A DNA stretch of 64,000 bases, from positions 1 to 64,000 of the forward strand of contig CAKZQS010000014.1 in NCBI GenBank assembly GCA_937141935.1, written 5' to 3'. This stretch comes from an uncultured Ectothiorhodospiraceae bacterium (lineage in GTDB: Bacteria > Pseudomonadota > Gammaproteobacteria > Nevskiales > Oceanococcaceae). Position 1 is the first letter of the stretch. Each line of letters begins with the position of its first letter. This document shows positions 4,282-32,376 of this stretch, piece after piece. A model generated the notes under the pieces. That model was not told the origin of the DNA. It searched no databases and saw only the letters and a program-made list of their open reading frames with translations. The position numbers and the translations under genes are program-made.

Positions 4282-7200
4282 ATGTCCAAGCTTCATGCAA
4301 GCCTGCTGGCTATTGCGGCCACGGCGATGCTGGCGGCCTGTGGTGGCGATTCTTCCTCTGGCGGCGGCTCGGCGCTGCCGGATGGCAGCGCCGCCGGCCG
4401 CGTCATTCGCATCGACCCCGGCCCGGGCGCCACCACCAAGATGGTGCTGGCCATGATCGACGCGCGCCCTCAGGACGTCATCGAATTCGGCCCCGGCTAC
4501 TTCGAGTTTGACTCGGGCATGCAACTGTCGAACACGGAGAACGTGCTGATCCGTGGCGCCGGCATGAACGAGACGGTGCTCTCCTTCAAGAACAGCGGCT
4601 CGCAGGAAGGCTTCCTGGCCACCAACGTGCGCGGCGTCACGATCGAGGACCTGACGGTGCTCGACTCGCCCGGCGATGCCTTCAAGCTGCAGGGCGTGAA
4701 CCACGGCACGCTGCGCCGCGTGCGCGCGTTCTGGTCCAGCGGGCGCAATACCGCCGACGAGGACACGGTGACGGCCGACAACTATCAGGAAAAAATGATG
4801 GTTGAGTGCACGGACCCGGCGCGGCATAACCCGGCCAACCCCAATCCGCTGGAAATGGATACCACGTCGCCGGACTACAACGTCAGCGTGGCCTCGGGCC
4901 GCTACGGCATTTACCCGGTGAACTCGCAGAACATCCTGGTGGAATTCACCGAGTCCATCGGGGCCTCGGATGCCGGCATTTACGTGGGCCAGACGGATAA
5001 CGCGATTATCCGCAACAGCCGTGCGGCCTTTAACGTTTTCGGTTTTGAAATCGAGAATGTGCGCGGCGGCGAATATGCCGACAACCTCTCCGAGTGCAAC
5101 ACCGGTGGTTTTCTGGTCTACGACCTGGACGGCCTGACCCGCTACGGCAAGCGCACGCGCATGTACCGCAACGTCGCGCGCAACAACAACACTTACAACT
5201 TCGCCGAGCCCGGCAGCATCGTGTCGAACGTGCCGCGCGGCGTGGGCATGATCACGCTGGGCTACGACCAGATCGACATTTTCGACAATACCTTCGAAAA
5301 CAACGGTACCGCCGGCATCGTGCACACCAGCTACGAGCTCTTCGGCGAGCCTGGCGACAAGCGTCTGGACATGTACACCGAAGGCGTGCACATCTTCAAC
5401 AACATTTTTGTCAATAACGGCAATGACCTGCCGCAACCGGATTACGCGACCATCATCGCGACCGAGGGCGGCCAGGTCACCTCGGCCTTCCCGATGCTGG
5501 TGGGCCTGAAGATCGCCGCCTCCGGGGATGAATACCGCGGCGGCCACATCATCTGGGATGGCTACCTCGACGAGCTGGATGCCGACTGCCCCTACCCCAC
5601 CGATGACCAGGGCCAGCCGATCCCGCAGGACGAGGACGGCAAGCCGATCCAGGGCAACCAGTACCCCAACCCGGATTGCCGCTACAACGCCTACAAGTTC
5701 GACAGCAACGGCGAGCGCATCAAGCCCAAGTGGTTTGCCTCCTGTATCGCCGAGAACAACCAGTTCGCCGACGACAGCCTGGCCTATGCCAACTTCAACG
5801 GCACCGAAGGCCTGGAGCTGCTGCTGGCCGCGCCGAACGTCGATGGCGACGTGCTGATCGACCAGGTGACCTCGCTGCCCGCCTTCGCGGCCGACCTGGA
5901 CATCAGCCCGCACCGCTGCGAAGAGCAGTACGGCGCCACCCTGCCCCCGCTGCCGCCGATCGTGATTCCGCCCTTCGAACCGTCCGGCGCGCTGGATCCG
6001 GCCCCCTCGCAGGCCACCATCAACCGCCTGTGCAACGCCGCGGTGCCGGCCGGCCAGATCAATGCCGAGGCCTTTGAGGTCAACTGCCCGCGTCTGGACC
6101 AGTACGCGCTGTTCAGCGACCCGCAGGATCCGCTGAGCATGCCCAATGGCCGCGGCACGCCCTTCGCCCTGAACAGCAAGCTGTTCTCGGACTTCTCCAC
6201 CAAGTACCGCGTGGCCTACATCCCCGAGGGTGAGCAGGCGATTTACCGCGACGGCCAGGACAGCGACAACGCCACGATCCTGTTCCCCGTGGGCACCATC
6301 GTCGCCAAGACCTTTGCCTTCGCCGACGAGACCAACGGCACCGAGGAAGCGGCGGAAACGCGCCTGCTGATCAAGCGCCAGCAGGCCGACGGCAATGTGT
6401 ACTGGAGCGGCCTGGAGTACATCTGGACCGAGGAGAACGGCGAGCGCGTGGCCGTGCTGACGCAGGAAGGCGGCACCGCCTCGGTGAGCTGGGACTACAC
6501 CGACGTCGACAGCGGCGTACGCCACCAGGGCAGCACGGACAACTACCTGCTGCCCAACGCCAACCAGTGCAACAGCTGCCACAGCAACGACGACGCCGAG
6601 ACCGGCACCGCGCCCATCGGGCCCAAGCCGCGCAACCTCAACCGCCCCTACGGCACCGAGTCGCCGCTGCCCTCGGGCCAGGCCAACCACCCGGTGGCCG
6701 GCGTCAACCAGCTGATCTACTGGTGCCAGAACGGCCTGATGAAGAACTGCCCGGATTCCATGGAAGTGGACCCGCAGACGCAGTACGTCACCAACGTCGA
6801 GCGCAACCCGGTCTTCAACATCCCCGGCGACTCCGGCTTTGCCGAAGGCTCGGACGAGGACATCGAGGCGCGGGTGCGAGCCTACCTGGAAATCAACTGC
6901 GCGCACTGCCACAACCCGCGCGGTCTGGCCCAGAACACCGGCTTCTACCTCGATGTGTTCCGCCCGGTCGACGATACCTACGGTATCTGCAAGGGCCCGA
7001 CGGCCAGCGGTACCGAGGGTCGCGGTGGTCGCGAGTTCGACATCGTGCCGCAAAGCGCGCCGGACTCGATCCTGCCCTACCGCATGGGCCCCGAGGCCGA
7101 CACCCTGGCCGCGCGCATGCCGCCGTTGGCCCGCAGCCAGGTGCACACCGAGGCCTTTGACCTGGTGACCGACTGGATCAACAACGTGGTGGACGAGACC

Positions 7201-7293
7201 TACCCCAACGCCGATGCCTGCGGCGATGGCGGCGGCGGTGGTCTGTTCGGCCTGCCCGGTGGTCTGCCGAGCGGATTGCCGACGGTCCACTAG
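4282..7293 (+). CDS. Lipoprotein: parallel beta-helix fused to diheme cytochrome-like domain
   Basis: 1003-residue secreted protein. A lipoprotein signal (LAIAATAMLAACGG, lipid-accepting Cys near 19) sends it to the envelope. Residues about 50-420 form a right-handed parallel beta-helix with repeated Asn/Gly turns (EFTESIGASDAGIYVG, NNTYNFAEPGSIVSN). A Pro-rich linker is followed by a C-terminal domain of the SO2930 type with two c-type heme motifs, CNSCH (residues 763-767) and CAHCH (873-877). The two halves resemble families usually described as neighbouring genes (TIGR03805 and TIGR03806 style); here they are one chain. Maturation would need the Ccm system encoded near 45-52 kb. The substrate is unknown; electron transfer tied to polysaccharide or hydrocarbon handling is only a guess. 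A GGAG 9 bases before the ATG supports the start. Confidence 0.85.
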   Translation: MSKLHASLLAIAATAMLAACGGDSSSGGGSALPDGSAAGRVIRIDPGPGATTKMVLAMIDARPQDVIEFGPGYFEFDSGMQLSNTENVLIRGAGMNETVLSFKNSGSQEGFLATNVRGVTIEDLTVLDSPGDAFKLQGVNHGTLRRVRAFWSSGRNTADEDTVTADNYQEKMMVECTDPARHNPANPNPLEMDTTSPDYNVSVASGRYGIYPVNSQNILVEFTESIGASDAGIYVGQTDNAIIRNSRAAFNVFGFEIENVRGGEYADNLSECNTGGFLVYDLDGLTRYGKRTRMYRNVARNNNTYNFAEPGSIVSNVPRGVGMITLGYDQIDIFDNTFENNGTAGIVHTSYELFGEPGDKRLDMYTEGVHIFNNIFVNNGNDLPQPDYATIIATEGGQVTSAFPMLVGLKIAASGDEYRGGHIIWDGYLDELDADCPYPTDDQGQPIPQDEDGKPIQGNQYPNPDCRYNAYKFDSNGERIKPKWFASCIAENNQFADDSLAYANFNGTEGLELLLAAPNVDGDVLIDQVTSLPAFAADLDISPHRCEEQYGATLPPLPPIVIPPFEPSGALDPAPSQATINRLCNAAVPAGQINAEAFEVNCPRLDQYALFSDPQDPLSMPNGRGTPFALNSKLFSDFSTKYRVAYIPEGEQAIYRDGQDSDNATILFPVGTIVAKTFAFADETNGTEEAAETRLLIKRQQADGNVYWSGLEYIWTEENGERVAVLTQEGGTASVSWDYTDVDSGVRHQGSTDNYLLPNANQCNSCHSNDDAETGTAPIGPKPRNLNRPYGTESPLPSGQANHPVAGVNQLIYWCQNGLMKNCPDSMEVDPQTQYVTNVERNPVFNIPGDSGFAEGSDEDIEARVRAYLEINCAHCHNPRGLAQNTGFYLDVFRPVDDTYGICKGPTASGTEGRGGREFDIVPQSAPDSILPYRMGPEADTLAARMPPLARSQVHTEAFDLVTDWINNVVDETYPNADACGDGGGGGLFGLPGGLPSGLPTVH

Positions 7294-8502: not shown

Positions 8503-10617
8503 CTAGAAGCCGATCGGTACCGGCTTTTTCAGCCGCTCCTTGCGCTCGTCCTCGCTGCCTTTCTCCGCGGCGGCGGGCGTGGGCTGCTGCCGCGCCTGCC
8601 GCTCGCGCTCCAAACGCTCGGCCTCCTCACGCTGCAGCCGCTCGGCTTCCGCCTCGGCGCGGGCCCGCCGTTCGGCCTCGGCCTGCTCGCGGGCGCGGCG
8701 CTCCGCGGCGGCCTTTTCCCGGGCGCGCTGCTCGGCCTCGGCCTGTTCGCGGGCGCGCCGATCGGCCTCGGCCTGGTCGCGAGCGCGCTGCTGCGCCGCG
8801 GCTTCGTCGCGCGCCTCCTGCTCCGCCTGGGCCTCCTGCTGCGCACGCCGTTCGGCCTCGATGCGGGCCCGACGTTCGGCTTCGGCGCGACGTTCGGCTT
8901 CGCTCTGCTCACGCGCCCGGCGGTCCGCCTCCGCCTGTGCACGCGCTTTGCGGTCGGCCTCGGCCTGCTCGCGGGCGCGCCGATCCGCCTCGGCTTGGGC
9001 GCGGGCCCGGCGTTCGGCTTCGGCCTGCTCCTGCGCGCGGCGCTGGGCTTCCTCCTGCGCGCGGCGCTGGGACGCTGGATCCGGAGTGGCGGGCGGCGCG
9101 CTGGGCAAAACACGGGGCTCCACGCTGGGCGCGACGACGGGTGTCGCGGCGGGCGTGGCGGGGATGGCCGGGGTTTCGATCTCCGCGGCGTCTTTCGGCC
9201 ACAGCAGCCAGGCGAGAACGCCCGCAATGAGCAGCGCCGCGCCGACCAGCAAGGCCCAAGGCGGCCCACGGCGCGCAGGCGCCCGCCGCGCGGGTTCGGG
9301 GATGCGCGCGGCCGGGATGACCTGCGTGGCGTCGCCGCCAGCGCCACCACTGCCGCCGCCGGGCTCGGCACGGGCCGCTGGTGCCGGTGTGGGGGCGGGA
9401 GCCGGCTTCTCGGGCTTGCTCGCCGGCGCCTTCGCGGCCGGTGGCGTGAAGACCTGGGTGGGTTCCGTGGGCGCGCGCTCGGGCTCTTCCGGCGGTACCG
9501 AAGGAATCACCTGCGTGTGGCCGGCGCTGTGGTCGCGCGTGTCCACCGGGCTGCCGGCGGCGGGCGTTGCCACCAGGGTCGGCTCGGGGTCCGCCGGCGC
9601 CGGCGTCGGTTTCGATTCCGTGGGCTCGGGCGCGGGCGGTGGCGGCGGCTCGGCCGCGGGTTCTTGCGCCGGCGGCGTGTCCGGAGGTGGCGCGGCACTG
9701 GGCCCGGCGGCCGTATGCTGGCGAATGGGGGTTTGCGCCGGCGTCGGTGCGTCCGCGCCGGAGCGCGACTGCGTGAGCCGGCTCACGTCGAAGGTGCCGG
9801 TCCAGTCGCTGGGGAAGGTCTGGTCCAGCATCCGCATCGCGCTGGCCGCGTCCTGCAGGCGCTCCTCCGGCTTTTTCGCCATCAGCCCCTGCAGCAGCGG
9901 CTGGAAGGTCGCGTATTCCTCGCCCAGGTCGGGAACCGGCTCGTTGACGTGCTGGAAGATGGTGGCGATGGGCGTGTCGGCCTTGTAGGGCACGCTGCCC
10001 ATCAGCATCTCGTAGAGGATGCAGCCCAGGCTGTAGAGGTCGGAGCGGCCGTCCACCTCCTTGCCCATCGCCTGTTCGGGGCTGATGTAGCGCGGCGTGC
10101 CGACGGCCATGCCGGTCTGCGTCATGCGCGTGTGCGAGTCCAGCGCCTTGGCGATGCCGAAGTCGGTCAGCGTGGGCGTGCCCTGCTCGTCGAACATGAT
10201 GTTCTCGGGCTTCACGTCCCGGTGCACGAAGCCGCGGGCATGCGCATGCTGGAAGGCCTGCAGCACCCCGCGCAGCGTCATCAGCACATCCACGATGCTC
10301 ATGCCGTCGGCAATGCGCTTGCGCAGGTCGCCGCCCGGCAGCAGGCGCATCGTGTAGTAGTTCAGGTTGTCGACGCTGCCGAACTCGAAGACCGTGACGA
10401 TGTTGGTATGCGACAGCGCCGCCGAGGCCTTCACCTCACGCTCGAAGCGGGCAATGAAATCCTGGTTGCGCGAATACTCCGGCGGCAGCACCTTGACGGC
10501 CACCCGGCGCCCCAGCCGCGTGTCTTCGGCCTCGTAGACATCGGCCATCCCGCCCGAGCCCAGCAGGCGCAGGATTTTCAGTGTGCCGAGGGTGAAGCCG
10601 GCTTCAAGCTGGGCCAA
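8503..10617 (-). CDS. Transmembrane Ser/Thr protein kinase with TolA-like periplasmic helix
   Basis: 704 residues. The N-terminal Hanks-type kinase has a Gly loop GSGGMAD (20-26), ATP Lys42, catalytic HRDVKPEN (Asp134) and DFG (152-154), and GTPRYISPEQ. All key residues are present, so it should be active. A Pro/Ala-rich cytoplasmic linker (about 280-450) contains three copies of a TQV motif (VIPSVPPEE, TQVFTPP, TQVIPAA), a possible phosphosite or FHA-binding pattern. One membrane helix (WALLVGAALLIAGVLAWLLW, about 455-473) is followed by about 160 residues of Ala/Glu/Arg repeats (AEADRRAREQ, AEAERRARA), a long single helix like TolA domain II, and a short basic tail. Start is TTG with AGGA in the preceding gene's stop region. 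Substrates are unknown. Confidence 0.88.
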   Translation of the reverse strand: MAQLEAGFTLGTLKILRLLGSGGMADVYEAEDTRLGRRVAVKVLPPEYSRNQDFIARFEREVKASAALSHTNIVTVFEFGSVDNLNYYTMRLLPGGDLRKRIADGMSIVDVLMTLRGVLQAFQHAHARGFVHRDVKPENIMFDEQGTPTLTDFGIAKALDSHTRMTQTGMAVGTPRYISPEQAMGKEVDGRSDLYSLGCILYEMLMGSVPYKADTPIATIFQHVNEPVPDLGEEYATFQPLLQGLMAKKPEERLQDAASAMRMLDQTFPSDWTGTFDVSRLTQSRSGADAPTPAQTPIRQHTAAGPSAAPPPDTPPAQEPAAEPPPPPAPEPTESKPTPAPADPEPTLVATPAAGSPVDTRDHSAGHTQVIPSVPPEEPERAPTEPTQVFTPPAAKAPASKPEKPAPAPTPAPAARAEPGGGSGGAGGDATQVIPAARIPEPARRAPARRGPPWALLVGAALLIAGVLAWLLWPKDAAEIETPAIPATPAATPVVAPSVEPRVLPSAPPATPDPASQRRAQEEAQRRAQEQAEAERRARAQAEADRRAREQAEADRKARAQAEADRRAREQSEAERRAEAERRARIEAERRAQQEAQAEQEARDEAAAQQRARDQAEADRRAREQAEAEQRAREKAAAERRAREQAEAERRARAEAEAERLQREEAERLERERQARQQPTPAAAEKGSEDERKERLKKPVPIGF

Positions 10618-10628
10618 GGTCGTAAGTC

Positions 10629-12002
10629 CTATGCGAGCAGTTGCCAGGCCACGGCGGCGCCGCAGACGACAGCGAGCAGGATCAGCAGCAGATGCAGGCG
10701 GGTCAGCCGCGCCAGAGGCCCGGCGCCGCGCGACGCGGGTGGCAGGGTGTCTTCAACGATGCGGCCGGTTTGCGCCTGGGCCTGGAACAGCGTGCGGTTG
10801 TCGCTGCCACCCGGGCCGTCGGCAAAGAGATCACCGCCCTGCTCCGCCGGCTCCGCTTCAGGGGCTGGTGCAGCAGCGGCTAGAGGTGTGGCGGCGGCCG
10901 GCGGCGCGGTGGCTTCCGCGGCTGGCGCCCCTGGCTGGGGCTTGCGCGACTGCGCGCGCTGCAGCTCCATGAGCTCCTCGATCGACATTACCTGGGTAGC
11001 GTCTTCGCCGACCTCGCGGGCCGCGGGCGTTGCGTCGGCGGCGGCGGATGGCGCTTCGGGCGCCGCGGCGGGCGCGGGTGCGGGGTTCGCGGGTGCTGGC
11101 TCTGGCCCTGGCGCTGGTTTTGGCTCTGGCTCCGGCGACGCGGGGCGCGTGCGCCCCGGGGGCGGCGGCGTTGCCCCGCCCTCCTGGCGGCGCAGCTCGC
11201 GCAGCGCCTGCTTGAGCTCGCCGGCATCGGCGTAGCGCTCGTCCGGGTCCTTGGCCATCAGCTTGTCCAGCAGCGGCTGGAAGCGCGCCAGCGGCTCGGG
11301 CAGCTGCGGCAGCGGCTCGGTCAGGTGCAACATGATGGTGGCGAAGGAGTCGGGCCCCTTGTAAGGCACGCGCCCGGTCAGCATCTCGTAGAAGATCACG
11401 CCCAGCGCGTAAAGGTCGGTGCGGGCATCCACGCCGCGGCCGCGGGCCTGCTCGGGGCTGATATAGCTCGGCGTACCCACGGTCATGCCGGTCTTGGTCA
11501 TCTGCCCCGAGGCATCCAGAACCTTGGCGATGCCGAAGTCGGTCAACACCGGCTCGTTGTCGCCGTCGAACAGAATGTTTTCGGGCTTGACGTCGCGGTG
11601 GGCCAGGCCCAGCGCGTGGGCATGCACGAAGGCATCGGCCATGCGCCGCATGATGCGCAGCGCCTCCGCCGGGTCCAGCGCGCCGCCGCGGATGCGCGCG
11701 GCCAGGTCGCCCTGCTCCAGCGCCTGCATGGTGTAGAACACCAGCGAGCCGTCGCGGCCAAATTCGTAAAGCGTGACGATGTTGGGGTGGCTCAGCCGCG
11801 AGATCTGCTGCACCTCGCGCTCGAAGCGCGCATACAGGCTCTCGTCGCGGGCCAGCTCCGGCGGCAGCAGCTTCAGCGCGACCGTGCGCTCCAGGCGCAG
11901 GTCGGTGGCCAGGTACACCTCGGCCATGCCGCCAAAGCCCAGCAGCTTCTCGATGCGGTATTCCCCGACCTGCTGGCCGGTTTGCAGCGAGGCCGACTTC
12001 AT
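10629..12002 (-). CDS. Tail-anchored Ser/Thr protein kinase
   Basis: 457 residues. Hanks-type kinase with FGGMAEVY loop, Lys44, HRDVKPEN (Asp137), DFG (155-157) and GTPSYISPEQ, about 60 percent similar by eye to the neighbouring kinase and so probably a duplicate. A Pro/Ala-rich linker (about 275-430, with a TQVMS motif) ends in a single C-terminal membrane helix (LLLILLAVVCGAAVAWQLL) with almost nothing beyond it; unlike its neighbour it cannot sense the periplasm. The ATG overlaps the PP2C stop (ATGA), so the kinase and phosphatase are translationally coupled. Probably acts on cytoplasmic Thr residues; targets unknown. Confidence 0.88.
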   Translation of the reverse strand: MKSASLQTGQQVGEYRIEKLLGFGGMAEVYLATDLRLERTVALKLLPPELARDESLYARFEREVQQISRLSHPNIVTLYEFGRDGSLVFYTMQALEQGDLAARIRGGALDPAEALRIMRRMADAFVHAHALGLAHRDVKPENILFDGDNEPVLTDFGIAKVLDASGQMTKTGMTVGTPSYISPEQARGRGVDARTDLYALGVIFYEMLTGRVPYKGPDSFATIMLHLTEPLPQLPEPLARFQPLLDKLMAKDPDERYADAGELKQALRELRRQEGGATPPPPGRTRPASPEPEPKPAPGPEPAPANPAPAPAAAPEAPSAAADATPAAREVGEDATQVMSIEELMELQRAQSRKPQPGAPAAEATAPPAAATPLAAAAPAPEAEPAEQGGDLFADGPGGSDNRTLFQAQAQTGRIVEDTLPPASRGAGPLARLTRLHLLLILLAVVCGAAVAWQLLA

Positions 12003-12763
12003 GCGCCGTCCTCGTCGTCCATTTCCTCGCCCAGCCACTGCAGCAGGACCATCGTGACGTTGTCCGGCGCGCCCCCATCCAGTGTTTGCTGCAGCAGGGA
12101 CTGCGCGGCGTGTTCGAGGTCATCCTCGGCGGCCAGCAAGGTGTCGCAGAGCGTGGCGTCGTCCAGCACGCCCGAGAGCCCGTCCGAGCACAGCAGGAAA
12201 ATATCGCCCGGCTCGCAGCTGCCGGCGCGCTCGTCGACCTCCAGCGGAAACTCGCACTGCCCGCCGCCCAGCGCTCGGGTCAGGCGGTGCCGCTCGGGGT
12301 GGTTGCGGGCCTCTTCCTCGTTCAGCAGGCCCGTGGCCATCAGCTCGTTGACCAGCGTGTGGTCGCTGCTGATCTGCTCCAGCTCGCCGGCACGCAGGCG
12401 GTAGATGCGGCTGTCGCCCACCCACACGGCATGCCAGCCGGCGCTGTCGGGCTCAAGCTGCACGGCCACCAGCGTGGTGCCCATGTTCAGGCCCGCGCCA
12501 CTGTCCTGCTTGCATACATAGTCGTTGGCGGCCTTGACCGCATCGGCCAGTGGGCGCCGCTGGCCCAGCTCGCGCAGCACCGTTTCCACGGCCAGCCGCG
12601 AAGCCACCTCACCGCGCTCATGGCCGCCCATGCCATCGGCCACCGCCACCAGGTGCAACTCGGCGCTCTGGCCAAAGTTGTCCTCGTTATTGGCCCGCCG
12701 ACAACCCGCATGGCTCAGCGCCACCGAACGATAGCCCGGGCCCCTGATCCATTCCGGTGACAT
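11999..12763 (-). CDS. PP2C-family Ser/Thr protein phosphatase
   Basis: 254 residues with the metal-binding motifs of PPM/PP2C phosphatases: NNEDNF (Asp28), VADGMGGHERGE (Asp43), LCSDGLSG and GGAPDNVTMV. This is the soluble Stp1/PppA type and should reverse the phosphorylations made by the two kinases encoded next. GGGGGAG lies 8 bases before the chosen ATG (MSPEWIRG). First gene of the operon phosphatase, kinase, kinase, beta-barrel. Related pairs regulate type VI secretion in some species, but no secretion genes are nearby here. Confidence 0.9.
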   Translation of the reverse strand: MSPEWIRGPGYRSVALSHAGCRRANNEDNFGQSAELHLVAVADGMGGHERGEVASRLAVETVLRELGQRRPLADAVKAANDYVCKQDSGAGLNMGTTLVAVQLEPDSAGWHAVWVGDSRIYRLRAGELEQISSDHTLVNELMATGLLNEEEARNHPERHRLTRALGGGQCEFPLEVDERAGSCEPGDIFLLCSDGLSGVLDDATLCDTLLAAEDDLEHAAQSLLQQTLDGGAPDNVTMVLLQWLGEEMDDEDGA

Positions 12764-12923
12764 CGCGAAACTCCCCCCTGGATAGCGGCCACAGTTTGCC
12801 ACAGGGCGTGCGTGCCGAGGACGCGGCGTGTAGCTGCCTATGCCGCGGAGGAAGCAAGGCGCCAGCGTGGAAAACTACTCTAGGTAAGCGCAGCGCCGGG
12901 AGAAGTCGAAGGGAACAACGTGA

Positions 12924-13304: not shown

Positions 13305-13952
13305 TCACAATCCTGCCTCAAGGTTGAGCTTCTTCCTATCTTGCAAGAGCTCACCAAATCTACCTGAATCCAGTGCCTCGATGATTTCATCGTAAATAGC
13401 TATTTTCTTCAAGTTGTCCCCGGCGTTAATTTCGGTGGCAGCGCTTACGGTCCTCCTTAGATTAGAGATTAAATCTCTCGCTTCATCTTCCCTGTCCAGC
13501 AAGATTAGGGTTACAACTCGATCATATTTCAGCATCGGCTCTTCAAAAAACTCCATTTCGTAAAAAAATCGCTGAATAGAGTCGATTTCGTCAAACCAAG
13601 GAATAATGGTTGCTTTTAGAGTTTCTAAAACCTCTGCAAATGTCCTTAATGAATCTTCACTAGACGAGACTCGCCATAAATCGCCCTCATCGCCGGATCG
13701 ATGCAGTCGGCGGCCCATATAATATCCAGAAAACGGGTTCGAGTAGAAGGTGCAAGTCAAGTTCACAAAATAATGAAGGTAAAACCCGTCATTTCTATTT
13801 GGGTCAAATGTCACTTGATCTACAAAATTATCTCTTACTCTATAAAACCCCAAGGCTGACGCTCTCAGAAAGCCAGCCTCACTAAGAAAAGGCTCAATAG
13901 ACCGATCCAATCCGCCAATAATTTCTTTTCTTATTTTGCTTCGTGTTGCCAT
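13305..13952 (-). CDS. Probable immunity protein for the Rhs toxin (DUF4304-like)
   Basis: 215 residues, predicted soluble, acidic, aromatic-rich. The N-terminal pattern (IEPFLSEAGFLRASALGFYR, then a VDQVTFDPNRND strand and FYLHYFVNLTCTF) resembles the DUF4304 fold often found beside polymorphic toxins. It starts 1 base after the toxin gene stop and is transcribed with it. Its base composition is clearly AT-richer than the surrounding genes, as is usual for horizontally exchanged toxin/immunity cassettes. The immunity role is inferred from context; the DUF4304 link is a by-eye resemblance. Confidence 0.65.
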   Translation of the reverse strand: MATRSKIRKEIIGGLDRSIEPFLSEAGFLRASALGFYRVRDNFVDQVTFDPNRNDGFYLHYFVNLTCTFYSNPFSGYYMGRRLHRSGDEGDLWRVSSSEDSLRTFAEVLETLKATIIPWFDEIDSIQRFFYEMEFFEEPMLKYDRVVTLILLDREDEARDLISNLRRTVSAATEINAGDNLKKIAIYDEIIEALDSGRFGELLQDRKKLNLEAGL

Positions 13953-13953
13953 C

Positions 13954-16900
13954 TTATCTTACGTGAATGAAAACTTCGATTATGGGAATCTTTCTCCCGT
14001 GCCGCTGCTCAAAATGAGCCAGAATCCTTTTCTTCTTGCCAGAAGAAAACCCCCGGCCCGTTTTTAAATCAATAAGAGCGGCAATCTTGTTCTTGTAATA
14101 GACCTCCATATCAACGCCTACAGAGCCCTTTTCTCTCTTATATCGAGCCTGTTGTCCGTTTTCGTGCCGGAACACTTCCGCTTGAATCTCAACATCTGGC
14201 AGTGGCTTATAGCGGAGCAACTTATCCTCTAGTCGCTTATGCGCAGCCGTGCCAAAGGAGCCCTTATTTTTGTGCGGTTCGCCAAGCTCAATAGTTTCCT
14301 GTACTGCGCTCAACAAGTGATCCAACACAAAATTCCCAATAACCCCAAAATCACTTGGGGGCCGCCCGAACATCAGCCGGTTGAATGCCGATCTACCGGC
14401 AAAGCTCGCACCGGCATTAAAGGTCGTGACCCCAACGCTAAACCCCGAGATTTGACCAGCAAGGAATGTATCGCCGCCAGGGTCAGTGAAGAGAGTTGGC
14501 ACATTCCCCGCGTAAACATATTTGTGCAAGCTTGACGGGTAGCTTTCCACTCCAGGGTGCGGGTCCAGACTTGTGAATCGTCCAAGGCTAGGGTCCATGT
14601 ACCGCGCACGCAGATTGTAGTGTGCGAGTTCCTCATCAAACTGTTCGCCAGCGAAGAGATAATCGTTGTCGGTAGAACCGGTTTGCTCCAGGAGTTCGCC
14701 GAAGCTTTCATACAGGTAGCTGTCTGATATCTCGCCAGTGGCGTCGGTCAGGGCGCGGGTGGTGCCCAGGGCGTCGTAGTGGAAGACGTGGCTCTGGCCG
14801 CTGCTGTGTTGGGTGAGCAGGTCGTTGCCGTAGGTGTAGCTGGCCAGCACGTTGCCCCCGGCATCGAGTACGTCGGTGACCTGGGCGTAGTCGCGCAGCG
14901 GGTCAATGACGTAGTCGATCCTCTGGCCGTTGACGGTCTTGCTGTGGCGGATGCCGTCGTGGTCGTACTCGAAGGCCAGGGTGTCGGCTGGTGTGGTGGC
15001 GCCGATCAGGCGGTCGCGGCTGTCGTAGCTATAGGTGGTCAGGCCTTGGGGGCCGGTGACCTGCAGGGTGTTCCCGTTGGGGTCGTAAGACCAGGTGCTG
15101 AGGGCTCCGGCCTGATCCTGGCTCAGCAGGCGATCATTGGCGTCGTAGCTGTACTGGGTGAGCAACTCATGGCCACCCTGCCTGCAACGCGGAGTGCAGC
15201 GGCTCTGGGTCTGGCGATTGCCCACCTTGTCGTAGGTCCAGACGGTCTCGGTATTGCCGCGGGCCGTATCGGTGACAGTGGCGCGGATCAACCGGTCGAG
15301 TTGGTCATAGCCATAGTCCACCTGCCGACCGTCGAGATCTTCGATGGCCAGGCGCTGGCCGGCTCCATCCAGCGTATAGCGCTGGCGGTTCAGCAGCGCG
15401 CCGGTGGCGCTGAGGGCGCGGACTTCGATGGGGCGGTTGCGCTGGTCGTAGTCGGTCTCGGTGCGGCTGCCGTTGCTGTGGTCGATGCGTACGGTGTTGC
15501 CGACGGCATCGTAGCTGTAGTGCGTCGTGCCCTGGGCATCGGTGACGGTCTGGCGGCGGTTGGCGGCATCGAAGGTGGTGCTAACGGTGCCGCTGGCCGA
15601 GGTGTACCCGGTGCGATTGCCGGCGGCGTCGTAGCTGTGCTGGGTACTCTTGCCGTTCGGGTAGTCGATGCGGGTCACGCGATCCCGTGCGTCGTGGCTG
15701 TACTGGGTGGTGCCGCGATGGTCAATGACGCTGGCCACAAGGCCGGTGGGCGTGTAGGTGGTCACAACGACCTGGCCGTCCGCGTAGCTCTCGCGGATGC
15801 GCCAGTTGTTGCTGTCGTACTCGAAGCTGCTGCTGGCCCCATTGAAGTCGATTCGCTGGGTGCGGTTGCCTGCCGCATCGTAATCGAAGTGCTCCACCTG
15901 CCCAAGCGGTAGCGCACGGCTTTGGACGCGGCCGGCGGCGTCGTAACTCCACCGCGTCACGCGCCCCGCCGCGTCGGTTTGGCTGACCTTGTTGCCAAGC
16001 TCGTCGTAGGCGTAGCTAGTGCGCTGCCCCAACGCGTCGACGACTGCGCTCAGGTTGCCGAGCGCGTCGTACTCGTATTGCGTCACCCGGCCGTTGGGGT
16101 CTGTTTCGCTGACGCGGCGGCCCAGCGCGTCGTAGCTTGTTTCCACGCTGGTGCCATCCGCAAATTCCGTGCGAATCAGGCGGTCGGCGGCGTCGTAAAT
16201 GAAGCGCGTAGTGCCTTGGGCGGTGGTCATCGTGGACCGGTTGCCGCGCATATCGTAGGCGTAGCTGACGCTGTGGCCCACGGCGTCCGTGGTGCTTGCA
16301 AGACGACCCGCCGCGTCGTAGCTATGGAGAGTACGGTTGCCGTTTTCGTCAATTTCGGCCGTAAGCTGGCCGGCGGCGTCGTACTCGCGAAGCGCACGAG
16401 GGTTGTCGCTATCGTCCTCGGGCGTGGCGTCCGGATAGAGCGTCGCGATGAGCCGATTAGCCGCATCGTATTGCATCCGCGTGATGCGCCCGGCCTTATC
16501 AATGTAGGCAACCTCATTGCCGTTGGCGTCGTACTGCCACTGCTCGCTGCGGCCATCGGGGTGGCGGGTGCGCGTACGCTCCCCACGGCGGTTGTAGTCG
16601 TGCTCGGTACGCAAGCCACGGGCATCGACCTCGGCAACAATTCGATCCAGGGCGTCGTACTCGGTCACTGTGGTGTTGCCGAGGGGGTCCGTGGTCTGAA
16701 CCAGGCGCCCCTTTGCGTCGTAGTCGAAGGTGGTGCTCTCTATGGCCTGGCTACCGTCCGCCAGTGTGCGAGTCACCTGTTCGCTCCGTACCCAGGTTTG
16801 CTTGCCGTCGTAGCCGTAGCGTGTGACACGGCCGTTGGGCGCGCGCTCCTCGATCTTGCGGCCGAAAATATCGTACAGGTACTGCGTTTGTTGCCCGACC

Positions 16901-19900
16901 GCGTCGCTGAAACTCGTGAGGTTGCCCCCTGTGTCGTACCCGAAGCTTGTACGGGCGCCTAAGGCGTCCTCAATGCTGCGCAGCGGGCCCGCGCGCCGGC
17001 GGAAGTCGTCGTTCACAAATTCGCTACGGCTGGTCACGCTGCCGTCCGGGGCAATTTCGCTGATCAGTTGGTGATAGGCGCTGTAGGTGTAGCTACGCGT
17101 ATCCCCCGCGGCGTTGGTTTCGCTCAGGGCATTGCCGTAGCCGTCATAAGTCCAGCTTTGGGTACGGCCCAGCGCATCGGTCCGACTGAGTTCATAGCCA
17201 AAGTCATCGTAGGTGCGTGTTGTCGTTTCCCCCAGGCTATTGGTTTCACTCAGGATGTCGCCCCGGTCGTTGTACACGTACACGGTGGCGTTGCCGCGGC
17301 GATCCGTTACGGTTTGCGTGCGGCCGGCAATGTTATGCGCAAGATCCACACGCTGCCCTTCGCCGTCTTCGGTTGCGATCAGTCGCCCGTCATCGTCGTA
17401 GAAATTGCGCGCCACCCGCTGTCCGAGCGGATCGAAGACTTCGTGGACGTAATGCCCGACCAGGTACGAGAATTGGGTGGTATTCCCGAGGGTATCCGTC
17501 GCGGCAACGAGGTCGCCTGCCGCATCGTAGCTGTAGGAGCGCTCGCGCCCGTCCGGAGCCCGCAGTGAAACGATCCGGCCTTGGGCATCACGCACGAACT
17601 CCACGCGCTCGCCATTGCTGTGCGTAATCCCATCTGCCCCGAAGGTGACACTGTTGCCGTGTACATCCTCAAGCCGCTGCAGCGTGAAGCCTTGGTGCAG
17701 CTCATAGGCCACGCCATCCTCGGCGGTGTAGCGATACTCGTCGGGGTCGACCGGGTCCTCGGGTCGGCCTGCATCCACAAGGTGCCCATCAACCAGTTCC
17801 AGAATGCCGTAGGAGGTTTGCTCCAGCTGGCCGCGCGTACCTGGCAGCGGGTCATAGACCAATGCGACCGTGGTGGCCGGCGCGCCTTGCTGGCACTCGG
17901 GTTCTGCGCGTGCGCGGAACTGCTCCACGATGCCGTCGGGCAAGGTTACGCTGACGGTGCGCTGACCGCTGATGGGCTTCACGCAATAAGTCGGCACAAC
18001 AGCGCCTTGCGATTGAACATTCCAGCCCAGACCGGCGGCGCGCCCCTCGCTGACCCGCACAGATTGGTAACCCACGCTCCACCCGTAACCGAAGTCCAGG
18101 GCTTCGTTACGGCGCCGGCTGTCATAGGTGCGTACGACCGTGATGGGGAGTCCCACCATCGGCACAGTGAGATCCTCGAATGTCATCGAGAGATCACCCA
18201 CCTTCATGGCGCCATCTATCAGCACGCCAGCGTCGGCGGCGCGGACATTGCCCGACGTGTCGGTGGCCTGCAACAGGATGCGATATTCGCCGTTGAGCAT
18301 CAGCGTGGGGTCTAGCGGTGCGATGCTCTGTTCGGCGAACGCGCTTCCTCCTTCCGCGAGCAGCTGCGGCGTGCCTTTGGGGTCGCCGTCGTAGAGAAAG
18401 AGCTGCCAGCTCGCCACGTCATCACCCAAAACTTCGCCACGGATAGACGCTGGCGCGGTGATCGTCGCGTTCTCGACCGGCTCAGTCAGGCGCACCGTGG
18501 GTGCCTCTTGGTCATTGGGGTCGCGCACCCAAAGAGTCTCCGTCAGCTGCACGGTGTCATAGGAATCCTGCACCGCAACATTCAACGCATAGCTGCCAGG
18601 TTCTGCCAGGCTTAACCTGGCGCGCAGCGCAGCGTCGAATTCCAGAGGCGCGCCGTCCAGCGTTGCCGTGGCGGACACCGGCCCCGCCGCATATTCGACA
18701 CCGACCTCGAGGTAAATCTGCTGCCCGGGGTCGGCTGGCTGAGGCAGCGCCTGCAACTGGGCCGTCAAGCTCGTTGACGCGGGCCACACCTGCAGAGTCC
18801 AACCCTGCTCCACGAAGCTCGCACCATCGTCCACACGGACCAGGAAGTCGAAGCTCCCGGCCGTGCTCGCCGGCCAGGACATGCGACCCGTCGCATCGAT
18901 CGATGCCCCCGTTGGCGCTGACATCAGTTGGAACGCCAGTGGGTCCCCATTGGGGTCTGTCGCCTCCACTGAGTAAGCGTATGTTGTGCCCTCGCGCACA
19001 GTGGTCGCAGGCCGGCTGAGGATGGTTGGCGGGACGTTGCGCCCTTGTTCGACTACCTCCAGCGCATAGCTTTGCTCGGCGATGCCACCACGGTTGTCAT
19101 CGACCTGAATCGACACGGTATGGACTCCTATGTCCGCGGCCTGCGGAGTCCACCGGATCAAGCCCGAGGCGTCGATCGACATGGTCGTTGGGTGCTGTAC
19201 CAAACTCGGCGTCAGCACGTCACCATCAGGGTCCTCGACGCCGAGCTGATAGTGATAAAAGGCGCCCGCGGCAGCCGTTAGCGGCGGGCTGCTGACAATC
19301 GTCGGAGCCGTATTGGGCGGATGCACGACCAAGTCATATCGCTGGGTGGCCGAACCGGCACTGGTGCTGACGCGTACCGCGACCTTGTGCAAGCCTGCCT
19401 GTGCAGCTGCTGGTGTCCAGCGCACCGTCCCTTGGTCCAGCGCCATCTGTGCCGGGCCCTCGATGAGCTCGAAAACGCCGCCATCCGCGTGTTCGGCGGA
19501 AACGGTGTAGCTGTATGGCTGCTCGGCAACGGCCTCCAGGGGAGGCTCGCTCACGATTCGGGGCGGCATCGCACGCGCTTCGACATCGAGCGCAAAGGTC
19601 GCGCGTACCGGTTGTTTGCCGTCGCTGACGCGAACCTCGAGGTCATAGCGACCCTCAACCGCAGGGGTCCACTCAAGCCAGCCGGTTGACCGATCAATGG
19701 ACATGCCATCGGGGCCGCTCAACAGCTCGTAGCTGAGGGCGTCGCCATCCGGATCCGAGGCCTGCACCTGCTGCCGCCAGAGTTCGCCGACATAGGCACG
19801 CGCAACCAGTGCACCCTCGATAACAGGCGGGGCGTTCGGTACGTCGGCGACATAGGCGGTAAAGGTGGTGTTTCGCCATGTGCCGGAGATGGCGCGCAAG

Positions 19901-22900
19901 CGCACGTCGAAGCTGTGCGACCCGGCGTCGCTGTAGCCCGTTTGCCAAGTGATTTCACCACTTTGCGGGTCTATTTTTGCGCCAGGCGGCGCTTTGTCGA
20001 AATGGAAGTAGGTCGAGTCGTTGTCGTCGGCCGACGCAGGCGTATGCCAGTGGCGAATGACCCGTGTGCGTAGCTCCTCCCCTTCCTCAATGGATGGGAC
20101 AGGATCCATCGTGAGGTAGTAGGCACCGGGATTGAGCGTCGCCCCCAGTAGCATCCGCATCTCGTCGAAGGCATCCGCGTGGTCGCGTATGCGCAGATGC
20201 GTACTGTGTGCCGAAACGACGTCGTTATTGTTCTGGCACTGTTCCACCGGTGCGAGCGGGGTCACTTTTGCGACCACTTCCCCGAAGAAGTCCCCGGGGA
20301 GATTCGCATCCAGTTGCAAGCTGACCTGCTCGCCTATCGCGAGAGCAGGACCTTGCCGCGCCGCAATCGGATCCGCACCGGACGCCGGATCCGCGGCGAA
20401 CAGCTCCAACCAGAATCCCGTTGGCATGTCTGCAGTGCCGCGATTGCGCACATTGACTGTTAGTGCGCCCGTATAGTCGCCTGCAGGTGCGTCGATCCAA
20501 AGATCCGGCAGACCCGAATCGAAGTCGCGGGCGGCGGGGGCGAGGATCTGGTCTTCGCCTCGAAGCTGCCATGATGGTTCCGCTGTCGGGTTGACCTGAA
20601 GATTCCCAAGGATGGCTTCAGGTTGTTGCGATCCCTGAAGGCGTACCAGCGGCAAACCATCGCGAAGTGCAGTCGCGCTGTAGCGTGAAATCCCGATCGA
20701 GCGACTCGCGGTGTTCGCGACCTCGAGGTGGCCGTCGCGGTCCAGGTCCGCCAAGAGCGGCGCTACACGGGGGCTCCCCGATGCGTACTGCCCCCGAGCG
20801 ATTTCAAGGCCAGTCGCGCCGTCCACTACCCGGCTGTAGGCGCCACGGTTGGCAAAGAGCTCCAGCCGATTATCCCCCTGAATGTCGGCAACGACGGCAG
20901 CATGGTGATCTCCCCTTCCTGCGTCATAGCGCCACCGCAGTCGACCACTAGCGTCATATAGTGAGTCGTCGCCGGCAATGAACACGTCCAATTCGGCAGC
21001 GCCGTCGAAGTCCGCGATGTGCGGTTGGCCGATGTACTCGATCGGCTGCGGCGAAAGTATGGTTGTCCCGAATGCATCCACGACGCTCCAGTGGGCTTGT
21101 GCCCCGCCATGGCTTCCGCGTTCCACGATAACGACTTCGGGGCTGCCGTCGCGATCCAGATCACCCACGGCCATATACGCGGCATCCGGAACGTGGTCGC
21201 CAAGCGACTGGGCCTGCCAAAGCAGGCTCCCGTCGTTGTTGTAAGCGCGGCCAGCATGGAGTAGCTCGGCGTTTCCATCGCCAGTGATGTCGATCGCGTA
21301 GCTTGGGCTGAGCCAGGCATTGGTGGGCAAGTCCGTCGGAGGCGCTGCCAGGGTTGCGACAGTGTTGCCCGATCCATCAAGAAACACGTGGCCAACCAAT
21401 ATTTCTGGCAAGCCATCACGATTCGTGTCGGCGATCGCTACCCTTACCACCTGGTTTGCGGTCCGTATGGGTTCAGCCGTGGACTCCCAAAGCAGACGCC
21501 CGTCGTCCGTGCTGATCGCAGCGACACGGCGAGTCGCACGCTGGACCACTACGAGATCTGGAACACCGTCCGCATTAATGTCGGCGATCGCCGGGTAACT
21601 ATAGGGCGCGCCTTTGCCCTGCGCGTTGAGTGTGCCCGCGTCCATCTCAGCGTTTTCCGTCGCGTCGTAGACGTTGAAGCCGCCGCTTACGTCCTGAACT
21701 ATTAGCTGAGCGCGATCTGCCGTTGTAATGGCGCCGTCGCCATTCGTGTCGCTCAGTGGCGAAGCGAGGAGATGATATTTATTGTACCTTCCACCGAGAC
21801 CTGTGTTACGCCATTCCGAGAACGATACAGCGGCACTCCCTCCTACTCCTCCGCGTTGGCAGAGATAATCCGTTTCGGGTAGGCGGCGGTCGTACAGGGT
21901 ATCTACCGAGCCCTGCCCCCAAGATAACCTTACGTTGTGCTCAACGTTAGCCGCAATGCCACCGTAAGTCAGGTAGGAGACCAAGTCTGGAGCGCTCGAT
22001 GTTAAATCGATCGAGAAGTTCTCACGTATGTTCGGGTCGGTGAAAACTACACTGCCAAAGTAGCTTTGACGGTGGCGAGCGACCGTATAGGCGGGCTTGC
22101 TAACAACCTCGGGCGGTTCATTGGGGTAGTCCGAGTAAAACGGGAACCACACAACCGTCGAGTTGCCGTATTGGTCTTCCGCATGAACGATTACGAGCGA
22201 AAGCGTATCCCAGAAGTCTGCAGTCGACGCCCACGTTAGTTCACCGGATACGGCGTCGATCTGCGCGCCTAGAGGCGCTTCCAACAAGCTGTATGTGAGA
22301 TCAGACGCCGGGTCCGCATTGAGTTGTAAACGAACGCGTGACTCTTCGCCAATCACTGCGCGCACGGCCGTATCGTGTCCCGCCGAAAACTCCGGTGGCG
22401 AATATCCCCCTGCTACGTGGACGACGAATTCCTGTGAGGCGACCGCACCGCTCAAATCCTTCACCGAAATAGTGAATGAATGCTGCCCACTATCGGAGGG
22501 CTGCGGTGTAAAGACAAACCTGCCGGAGTAAGGGTCCAAAGACGCGCCGTCGGGGCCCTCGTCAATGGTGAAGTAGTGACCATCGCCAATATCCGGGTCG
22601 TCTACAACAACTTGGTAAACGTAATGCGCGCCTGCGGCCACTTGCGCAGGTGGCGTTGACTCGATAACAGGCGCGTGATTAACGTCTCGGACGTTCACGA
22701 CAAAGGTTTGAAACGCGCGCCCCCCAGCGTCGTCGTTCACTTCCAAGGTGACTATAGGGACGCGTTGGCTGTTGTTCTCGGTGTCACATTCTGAGGTGGT
22801 CTCCCCAACTACAGAAAGCACGATTTCGCTTCCATTCGATTGGGGGTTTACAGGAAGCGGAGCGGGCACAACAACGGACTGGCCGGCGTCAAGCCCTTCC

Positions 22901-25900
22901 ACCTCTACAGTTGTGACGGGACTATGCGGCGCTTCTGGCCAATGAGCTTCGAGTCGACCGGGGCTCGTGGCGCCAGATAAGCCGCGATTGGAAATCGATG
23001 CTAAGAGAATGTCCGCAGTCGTGTCGGTAAGAAGCTCAACGCTATCAATCGCGAGATCCGCCAAATGCGCATTACTGCCCGACTTCAGCGTCGTCGCGAA
23101 CATTGTCGAGGCGAGCGCCCTACGAAGCGGGCCCGACTCCGGCCCGTAACCGTCGACCGCCGATGTCCATGACCATACGAGGCCGCCGGTTTTGAAGGCC
23201 GTCTCAATGTAGGGGATCACATAGGCGTTGCGGTAATACCCTTCTTCGGCGAGCTTCGAAACATCGACATCGCATCGAGCGTATCCCGTGCCGTCAGCAT
23301 AGTAGCCCCTGCCTTCAGCATCAGTGCCGATCGCCCAAGCGCCGTTCGCACACCGCAGATTGGTGTTGGTGATGACATTGAGCGTAAAACTCCCGTCAAT
23401 CAGACGGCGCTGGAGGTCGGCGAGCGTTTCGCCATTTATCGGCCCGCCTTGGGATGGTTCGTCCGCGATGAGGACCAAATGCTTGGCGGCGGGGTCGCGA
23501 AACTCGAAGTTGTCGAGGGTGAACTGGAGAGCTCGCAGCCCGTTTTCCGCTCCCCCACCACCTTCGGTGATATTCGCATCGAAGGTATGTGCGTAGAGCT
23601 GGTCAATGCTCCCAAAGAGGTCTGGTCCGAACTGGGCCGCGCCGGGGGTGCCCCCGAAACCCACGAGGCCCCAACGGTTTTCCGTAGGCGCGATGCCGAT
23701 CCCCTGAAGAAGGAGGTCGGAGTGCAGACTCGCCATCGCTTCCGATACCCAGGGCCATGTCTTTACATTTGACGCTGAGCTGTCAACCACCATCACCGCG
23801 TCCACGGCTGGCGGCCGCGAGAACCTGTCGTCAGTTGAGCGTGCGCAATAGGCGTGTGGCAGGGTGTTGCCGCCGACAAAGGCGTCGGTTGCAGACCAAG
23901 AAATCAATCCTTGGTCATCGATGGTCATGCCCTCGGGCGCTGACCGCAGTGTGTAGGTGAGCGTGTCACCGTCCGCATCGCTAGCTTGTACCGCGTAGGC
24001 GAAGTGATCGCCTTCCGATATCGATCCGGGCGGAATGCTCGTGATGACAGGTGCCGAGTTACTGCTGACGATCTCGATGGTGAAGCTGTGGCTGGCAACA
24101 TCGTCGTTACGGTCGGTCGCCGTGATCGTGAATGCCCGAACGCCGGTGTCGCCTGCCGCGGTTTGCCATTCCAGTAAACCCGTTAGCTCATCGAGAACGG
24201 CGGCGGCGGGCGCCTCGACGAGACTGAATTGAAGGATATCGTCGGGATCCGGGTCACTTGTCGTGAGCTGATACTCCAACAATGCTCCTGCATCAATCTC
24301 ACTCGGAGGTGTGGATGTGATCAAAGGGGGCGACCGGTCGCGCGAAACCACCAAGGTCGTGTCGGAGGAATTCCCAGCGCGATCAACGGCGCGCAGGCTA
24401 ATGTCGTTCTGTCCGAAATCCAACGGCACAATTGCATGGAAAGTCAGAGCGGCGTCGACTTCGACTGCCTCGCCGAGGATGCTCAGTTCTGCCGGCTCGT
24501 CCAACTGGCCGGCCACGGTCACTGTCGGCGCATAATGGCTCGAGCCATCTGCGGGAGTTGTGACGCTGATGGTCGGTGCGGTGGTATCGACGTGTATCGC
24601 GCCGGTGGTCTCCGCCCAGTTTCCCGCCTGATCCTGAACTCTGAACGAAAGTCTGTTCACGCCCTCCGTCAGATCGCCGGTGGGACGGCACATAGCTCCA
24701 TCTGTTGACGGCGTGCATTCGAAGTCCGCGGGGGAGCCGTCGACCGTTGCTGCGAGCGTGCCGACGTCCACTCCACTTAAGCTATCCGTGTAGGTCAGCT
24801 GAAACTCAGGTCGGCTGGTGTTCAGTAAATCCCCAAACTGAGGCGCGACGAGTGTCAGGATTGGCCCTGCGGTGTCGATGGTGAAAACGTTGGTCGCACG
24901 ACCGACGTTGCGTGCGAAATCCTCTACCGAGGCCGCGACACTCAGATGTCCATCAGGCAATGGACTTGAGAATTGGCATTGGATTACGGAGGCCTGAAGG
25001 GCGCATGTCGCATTTGCGGCCTCGTTGTTCACCTCAAGCTGCAAGGTGTCCAGGTTTGGGCCCGATGTGGCATCGCTAACGGCCACCACAATGTCTGGTT
25101 GAGGGTCGCTGAGCAGTGCCCCGGCGCTAGGAGACGTAAAAGCAATAGTGGGATTTTGCGTGTCGACCGTAAGCTCTTGTATGGACGTTGCCGTGTTGCC
25201 TGCGAGGTCACGAACGCCCACGCTGAGTTCTCTCAGTCCGTCGGCCATCGGCTCGCGGAGCGTGCAAGTGGCGCCGCCAGAGGAACTCTCACAGGACGCG
25301 CCGACCACGATGCCGTCGGCCATGAGCACCAAGCTCTCAATGTCAACGCCGCTGCCGTCATCGCTGAAGGCAATTACGACAGTAGGCGTCGGGGTGTTGG
25401 TTGGAGGCTCCGCGGCGGGCTGAAGAATTTGCAACTTAGGCGGCGTGGCATCGATTGTGACCTGCCGAGTGAGTGCAACCTGATTGCCTGCGCGGTCTAG
25501 CGCCTCGACCGTGATCGTTCGCTCGCCATCAGCGAGGTCATCAGTTAGAACGCAGGAGTAGAGCCCATCGCTGCCTGCGCAGTTCGCGGCCGCAGCGCGG
25601 TTGTCAACGAATAGCGCGGGTGACTGCTCCGAAACCCCGCTTGTGTCATCTGAGACGGCAATGCGAATTTCGGGTCGGCGCGTTGCGAGGTTTTCAGCAG
25701 CTTGGGGTGCCAATATCTCAAGCGCGGGTGGCGTCGCGTCGATCGTGAACGCACGTGGACCCGCCTCGCTCGTATTGCCAACGAAATCGGCAACCCGCGC
25801 GGTGAGGTTGTAAGGTCCGTCAGCGAGTACGGAAAGTGGCGCGCACGTTGCGCTGTCGGCTTGGGCGCCGCAGGACCACGACTGCCCCCGATCGTCCGTC

Positions 25901-28717: not shown

Positions 28718-29476
28718 TTAGCCGCCACCCATGCGTTGCAGGCGTTCGGCGGCGATGCGGCCGGCGCTGCTGCCGGCGTGCTGTGTGGCCACTTCCTGCA
28801 GGATGGCGCGGGCGTCCTGCATGCGGCCCTGGTCCACGCGGATCAGGCCCTGCTTGAGCCGGGCATCGGCGGCCTTGAGGCTGTCGGGATACTTCTCCAG
28901 CACTGCCGAGAAGGCCTCCCAGGCCCGGTCGAACTCACGCTGCACGTAATAGGCCTCGCCGATCCAGTACTGGGCGTTGGGCGCATAGGCGCTGCCCGGG
29001 TGTTCCTGCAAGAAGTCGCGAAAGGCGCTGGCGGCTTCGCCGTAGGCACCGGTCTTGAGCTTGCCGAAGGCGGCGAGGTAATCGCTTTGGTCGTCGCGGC
29101 TGCTGCCGCTGCCGCGTGGGGCGGCGGTCGGCGGCGGGGCGGCAACGCTCGGGGCCGTGCTGGCCCCGGCGTTGGCGCCTTCGCGAATGCGCTGTGCCTG
29201 CACCTCCCGCAGCCGATAGCGCAGGCTCTCGACTTCGCCGCGCAGCTCACGCAGCTCCTCTTCGAGCATGCCGACGCTGGAGCCCAGGCCCGCCGCGCCG
29301 ATGCCGTCCACGGAGGCGCGGGTTTCCATCACCTCGCGCTCCAGGGCGGAGATGCGCTGGTCGTGGCGGCCGAGTTTTTCGGCCACCGGATCGACTTCCG
29401 GCGTGGAGGCACAGGCCCCCAGGAACAGCAGGGCTACGGGGGCCGCGAGGGCCAGCGGGCGGGCAGAAACAGTCAT
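28718..29476 (-). CDS. cpoB: Cell division coordinator CpoB (YbgF)
   Basis: 252 residues with a leader containing a lipobox-like LGAC, which suggests a lipoprotein rather than the soluble periplasmic form known from Escherichia coli. A coiled coil follows (ISALEREVMETRASVDGI, LEEELRELRGEVESLRYRL, about 40-95) that trimerises and binds TolA. After a Pro/Ala linker come about three TPR units (YLAAFGKLKTGAYGEAASAF, AQYWIGEAYYVQREFDRAW). CpoB couples PBP1B activity to Tol-Pal constriction. The start overlaps the pal stop (TGATG); last gene of the Tol-Pal cluster, with tRNA-Lys following. Confidence 0.95.
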   Translation of the reverse strand: MTVSARPLALAAPVALLFLGACASTPEVDPVAEKLGRHDQRISALEREVMETRASVDGIGAAGLGSSVGMLEEELRELRGEVESLRYRLREVQAQRIREGANAGASTAPSVAAPPPTAAPRGSGSSRDDQSDYLAAFGKLKTGAYGEAASAFRDFLQEHPGSAYAPNAQYWIGEAYYVQREFDRAWEAFSAVLEKYPDSLKAADARLKQGLIRVDQGRMQDARAILQEVATQHAGSSAGRIAAERLQRMGGG

Positions 29477-30021: not shown

Positions 30022-30046
30022 GATCGAGTGTCCTTCGTTAGGGGGG

Positions 30047-32370: not shown

Positions 32371-32376
32371 GGCGCC

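Follow-up and report, generated by a model that had tools for sequence, protein, structure and literature searches.

Within a 64,000-nucleotide stretch of DNA (the window), a cluster of genes on the minus strand encodes a PP2C-type phosphatase, two Ser/Thr kinases and a barrel-like, probably outer-membrane protein (Table 1). The kinase next to the barrel gene, hereafter the stalk kinase, is read from a TTG start codon with AGGA upstream to a TAG stop. Its Pkinase domain contains the catalytic lysine (Lys42), the HRD motif (residues 132–134) and the DFG motif (residues 152–154), all located by sequence and alignment, and these features identify a Hanks-type Ser/Thr kinase.

Table 1. Features of the stalk kinase and its neighbouring genes, in window coordinates.
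Feature	Position	Strand	Basis
Ser/Thr kinase with predicted periplasmic stalk, 704 aa	8503..10617	-	ORF, Pfam, AlphaFold2
Kinase domain, residues 15-257	9847..10575	-	Pfam Pkinase, E 5.7e-45
Pro-rich linker, predicted cytoplasmic, residues 270-453	9259..9810	-	Sequence
Single transmembrane segment, residues 454-472	9202..9258	-	Hydropathy, AlphaFold2
Pro/Ala-rich linker, residues 473-513	9079..9201	-	Low model confidence
Single long helix with 10-residue repeat, residues 514-677	8587..9078	-	AlphaFold2, repeat statistics
Conserved C-terminal peptide KKPVPIGF, residues 697-704	8506..8529	-	Orthologue comparison
Second Ser/Thr kinase, tail-anchored	10629..12038	-	Pfam; C-terminal TM, no periplasmic part
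PP2C-type phosphatase	11999..12802	-	Pfam/NCBIfam profiles
Barrel-like, probably outer-membrane protein, 227 aa	7777..8460	-	Weak OMP match, model; signal peptide by eye

The topology of the stalk kinase was assigned from hydropathy and charge. A simple hydropathy scan returned the segment at residues 454–472 and no second transmembrane-like window in the protein, and the 15 residues before this segment hold four Lys/Arg against one in the 15 residues after it. Because the protein has a single hydrophobic segment and the kinase side of it is the more positively charged, the kinase domain is predicted to lie inside and the 232-residue tail outside, in the periplasm. The same pattern, one transmembrane-like segment with the kinase side richer in Lys/Arg, recurs in all five complete orthologues described below and argues against a cytoplasmic tail; frame and stop were read directly, which argues against a mis-called ORF, and we consider either explanation of the tail highly improbable. 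No Pfam domain was matched after the membrane segment of the stalk kinase, PASTA included (E 0.01), in line with the absence of PASTA or any other sensor domain put forward by the first-pass annotation.

That annotation had also described about 160 residues of charged repeats following the membrane and reaching far into the periplasm, and both points gain support here. AlphaFold2, run with a two-sequence alignment, modelled a transmembrane helix at residues 454–471 and one unbroken helix at residues 514–677, with block pLDDT values mostly of 87–94. These 164 residues correspond to about 24.6 nm, and a helix of some 25 nm in the predicted extracytoplasmic placement would extend deep into the periplasm. 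Over residues 515–684, opposite charges at positions i,i+4 number 50, compared with 21.7 in shuffled sequences (z 7.4), and the sequence is 54% identical to itself at a lag of 10 residues, a period also visible in the DNA as a 30-bp tandem pattern. No power was found at a heptad hydrophobic period (3.5 or 7) in the helix, and the helix is therefore most simply read as a single alpha-helix and not as a coiled coil; the repeat statistics, obtained without a dedicated predictor, agree with this, combining the surplus of i,i+4 salt-bridge pairs with the missing heptad period.

To place the stalk in an evolutionary context, we searched 85 genomes of the window's order, taking a match at E 1e-80 or better as a close kinase. 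Seven genomes carry one, and in five of these, namely the window genome (G000), G040, G044, G045 and G048, the kinase is complete and ends in Gly-Phe. The part following the membrane measures 232, 182, 190, 159 and 194 residues, respectively, so that the four relatives keep a stalk of 159–194 residues. Its material, on the other hand, differs: the longest run free of Pro and Gly is 164 residues in G000, 64 in G040, 96 in G044, 7 in G045 and 78 in G048. Three of the relatives combine Pro-rich sequence with a helix shorter than that of the window, while the stalk of G045 is Pro/Thr-rich only, with no helix-forming run after the membrane. On reading the orthologues, the helix was accordingly rejected as the conserved element.

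What does persist is the extreme C-terminus. The five proteins end in KKPVPIGF (G000), RRPMGPVGF (G040), RRIPGF (G044), RRVLIPGGF (G045) and RRPFGF (G048), and the pattern [KR][KR]-x(2-5)-GF is kept in all five. The expectation that homologues would share the tail thus holds for a long stalk but not for its helix, the GF end being conserved instead, and the constant element would seem to be this peptide carried on a long stalk. As a background, we collected 84 distinct complete kinase ORFs, dropping frames off the locus and ORFs without the motif HRD[LVI][KT]PxN[IVF]. Six of them end in GF: the five orthologues and one among the other 79 (L107), whose membrane segment stops 9 residues before the protein end; this background represents mainly other phyla, with most of the order's kinases from the short loci L014–L037 missing. 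The catalytic loop of the G045 kinase (L041 8083-10362, minus strand) reads HRDVTPGN where the others have HRDVKPEN.

The remaining close kinases show other endings. That of G049 has a different C-terminal part. In G065 the kinase is cut at a contig end, and a fragment at another contig end, adjoining the cyclase-FHA gene of that genome, has the helix repeat but no GF at its end; the two probably represent one gene split over two contig ends, in a genome only 79% complete. A kinase-domain tree, in which this fragment was labelled GF-tailed and some outgroup rows form long branches, requires three changes for the GF-tailed kinases, with G049 and two Sinimarinibacterium flocculans (Nevskiales) paralogues that lack the tail falling among them, and a single clade of GF tails is therefore unsupported. 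Among 369 genomes of the class, a wider search at E 1e-80 found close kinases in two, that of the window and G373; the two kinase frames of the latter (322 and 262 residues) both end without a GF-type tail.

These comparisons bear on two alternative views of the stalk. The first-pass annotation had suggested that the kinase may measure envelope distance, and the helix as a ruler between inner and outer membrane would suit a periplasm whose width is of the order of the 24.6 nm modelled here. However, Pro/Gly-free runs ranging from 164 down to 7 residues leave neither a fixed length nor a fixed stiffness, and with one stalk Pro/Thr-rich and three others shorter and mixed, this proposal is weakened to the point of being quite improbable. 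The second view takes the stalk as a low-complexity spacer or cell-wall anchor that makes no contact with the outer membrane, the kinase being regulated from the cytoplasm. It would accommodate the wide variation in stalk sequence and helix content, as well as the occurrence of similar charged sequence on the other side of the membrane: in the four other complete orthologues a region of 252–311 residues before the membrane consists to 82–86% of Ala, Glu, Arg, Lys and Gln, and since this region precedes the membrane, the charged repeat type appears not to be exclusively periplasmic and to lie mostly on the predicted cytoplasmic side in four of the five. Nevertheless, the end peptide is kept while the stalk before it is rewritten, and a barrel-like protein is distributed together with the GF-tailed kinase (see below), which makes a stalk with no outer-membrane contact unlikely.

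The surroundings of the kinase gene are partly conserved. The PP2C gene lies upstream of the stalk kinase in all five genomes, directly so in G040, G044, G045 and G048, while in the window the second kinase, 56% identical to the stalk kinase over the kinase domain, stands between them. Multihaem cytochrome c554/c7-like genes are found directly upstream of PP2C in G048 (L039 8995-10344, plus strand) and G040 (L038 6790-8199, plus strand). A gene for a cyclase fused to an FHA domain sits beside the barrel gene in four of the five genomes and on another contig in the window genome; Pfam Guanylate_cyc and FHA were both matched in G048, G044, G000 and G040, and the G045 and G065 genes were recognized by sequence match alone. 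Searching with the G048 protein, the best six of the 85 genomes were G048, G040, G044, G065, G045 and G000. Relatives at E 1e-10 occur, however, in 34 of the 85, and the next genome (G058, 209 bits) scores close to the window genome (223 bits), from which we conclude, at the level of sequence matches, that the cyclase-FHA protein is not specific to the stalk kinase. In G058, G009 and G028, cyclase-FHA genes have tail-anchored kinases, different from the stalk kinase, in their vicinity.

Elsewhere in the window we found Tol-Pal, RuvAB, 2-oxoglutarate dehydrogenase and cytochrome c maturation genes, together with a 4786-residue protein (13954-28314, minus strand) bearing YD/RHS repeats and, close to its end, an RHS-associated core. 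The gene that follows the latter (13305-13952) has a weak DUF4304 match just under cut-off and could be the matching immunity gene. On the plus strand, 4282-7293 encodes a parallel beta-helix region fused to a region resembling the SO2930-family diheme cytochrome c, the latter match being under cut-off.

The barrel gene starts 42 bp downstream of the stalk kinase. Its family shares a conserved GYRxxxQGxGxxDD block, and one of five members matched OMP_b-brl weakly (16.8 bits, under the cut-off of 28.7). The structural model shows a run of long strands and has a mean pLDDT of 46; in a fold search the best match had E 0.0046, none reached 0.001, and most of the 50 matches listed were outer-membrane barrels. 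A profile search against the sequences of solved structures returned nothing up to E 10. From the weak OMP_b-brl match, the model and these fold matches the protein is likely, though not proven, to be an outer-membrane barrel.

The distribution of the barrel family follows that of the tail. Single-sequence and profile searches placed it in five of the 85 genomes, exactly those with a complete GF-tailed kinase, that is, in five of the seven genomes with a close kinase and in none of the other 78. The profile gave one further marginal match (G033, E 0.0095, 16.5 bits), which we take as noise. No barrel match was obtained in G065, whose presumed tail fragment lacks GF, nor in the congeners without a close kinase (G001, G061, G028, G078), and a four-row profile run against 398 genomes of the phylum matched the window's own genome alone. 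A coincidence over five of 85 genomes would have a probability of 3e-8 under independent genomes and unlinked genes, both of which assumptions are untrue. Kinase and barrel genes are adjacent in G045 and the window and separated by the cyclase-FHA gene alone in G044 and G048, so that, with near neighbours in four of five genomes, co-inheritance accounts for part of the pattern. Linkage does not explain the pairing in G040, where the kinase maps to 1.57 Mb and the barrel and cyclase-FHA genes to 3.01 Mb, 1.44 Mb away.

The barrel may still not be what the tail meets. PDZ domains read free C-termini ending in a large hydrophobic residue, a description that a GF-type end suits, and in G048 and G040 a lipoprotein-like gene whose start is rich in Cys and Gly comes before that of the barrel (L039 15324-16595, minus strand, and L134 7976-9079, plus strand, respectively). 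The tail could therefore bind another periplasmic or outer-membrane partner, such as a PDZ domain, a lipoprotein or TolB/Pal, in which case the barrel would not be the ligand but would be co-regulated or act as a target further downstream. The candidates covered by the distribution tests were the barrel and the cyclase-FHA protein; we regard a different partner as somewhat unlikely.

The previous analysis leads to the hypothesis that the protein is a trans-envelope receptor kinase that uses its stalk to offer the GF tail at the outer membrane, possibly to the barrel, a proposal whose chances we judge to be evenly balanced. Mechanistically, the stalk, be it a single alpha-helix or Pro/Thr-rich, would act as a spacer that takes the GF peptide across the cell wall as far as the outer membrane; there the peptide would dock on a partner, for which the barrel is the most likely candidate. 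The making or losing of this contact, upon envelope damage, a change in spacing or the binding of a ligand to the barrel, would then change how the kinase clusters and how active it is; PP2C would reset the signalling state, and the cyclase-FHA protein could read phosphothreonine and relay it as a cyclic nucleotide. According to this proposal the stalk material would be free to vary because reach and the end peptide alone would matter. The contact with the outer membrane suggested by the first-pass annotation thus finds a plausible direction in an adjacent and co-distributed barrel-like protein, the contact itself being what we infer; the case linking kinase, barrel and GF end is built on five complete orthologues. 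We more tentatively suggest, as possible yet short of probable, a Nevskiales-type gammaproteobacterial class of kinases bridging both membranes, with a TolA/TonB-like stalk, a GF peptide directed to a dedicated barrel and an FHA-cyclase readout. Such bridging, if true, would let a single protein link the state of the outer membrane to phosphorylation in the cytoplasm, by way of an end peptide that is defined and a partner for which there is a candidate.

Compared with known systems, the stalk kinase belongs with the Hanks-type receptor kinases, its extracytoplasmic part being unusual. It resembles the PASTA kinases (PknB/PrkC/Stk1) in its N-terminal cytoplasmic kinase domain, single transmembrane segment, extracytoplasmic C-terminus and PP2C in the cluster, but it scores 300 bits against the NCBIfam model PknB_PASTA_kin (cut-off 450) and carries no Pfam domain after the membrane; with no PASTA match and a score under the cut-off, identity as a PASTA kinase was rejected. 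The threonine-phosphorylation system of type VI secretion (T6SS) includes Fha, and the window genome likewise has an FHA protein, which differs in being a cyclase fusion. To our knowledge, based on a search that was not exhaustive, little is known of outer-membrane signal input to Gram-negative Ser/Thr kinases. Kinase and PP2C are common to this locus and to PpkA/PppA of T6SS, as outlined in the available part of PMC13147305. A PpkA-like origin was rejected, as no T6SS family was found among the 36 window ORFs scanned. The available portions of PMC13147305 and PMC1262709 describe bacterial kinases carrying PASTA, TPR, solute-binding or other folded domains. Among these, PknS of Xanthomonas citri is also a gammaproteobacterial transmembrane kinase whose C-terminal periplasmic part is needed for signalling, but it has TPR repeats and an ECF sigma factor partner (PMC13147305, same part) where the window kinase has a stalk with an end peptide and a barrel-like neighbour. 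Among the papers listed by searches of the open-access PMC literature, none pointed to a kinase whose stalk resembles that of TolA.

A parallel in design exists with TolA and TonB. The window encodes a true TolA (31351-32370, minus strand) within a tol-pal cluster (28718-33536). The helix of this TolA shows the same kind of charge pattern as the kinase (z 9.5), but its residues recur with a period of 8 (57% identity at both lag 8 and lag 16). The mimicry of TolA domain II claimed at first pass stands as far as the long, charged single helix is concerned; it does not extend to the repeat, of 10 residues in the kinase and 8 in TolA, nor to the rest of the protein, as TolA domains I and III are both absent from the kinase. 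The model tolA_full gives 41.7 bits for the kinase and 163.9 for the window's TolA (cut-off 59.45), and the domain III fold (TonB_C/TonB_2) is matched in TolA and not in the kinase. The motor motif S-x3-H is likewise missing from the kinase segment WALLVGAALLIAGVLAWLL, which has neither Ser nor His, and present in the window's TolA; the full S...H......L...S pattern is a poor test here, as it missed that same TolA (S-LLL-H kept). Homology by descent was rejected on the score under cut-off and the different period, and the resemblance, kept as a likeness, looks convergent given that period and the missing domains I and III; from the sequences compared, the two stalks appear alike in design, their relatedness not being established. 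In the parts available of PMC12204202 and PMC10666116, respectively, domain II of TolA/TonB occurs in helix-rich, Pro-rich and mixed forms in nature, and proteins in which it has been swapped remain partly functional, whereas shortening it so that it reaches less far abolishes function. The variation of the kinase stalk parallels this, and we accordingly take the stalk to be a spacer, with the end peptide the probable working part. As in TolA and TonB, a periplasm-spanning part, alpha-helical or Pro-rich, would terminate in an element that meets a partner at the outer membrane, and, if so, the stalk solution of TolA/TonB would have been reused in signalling instead of force.
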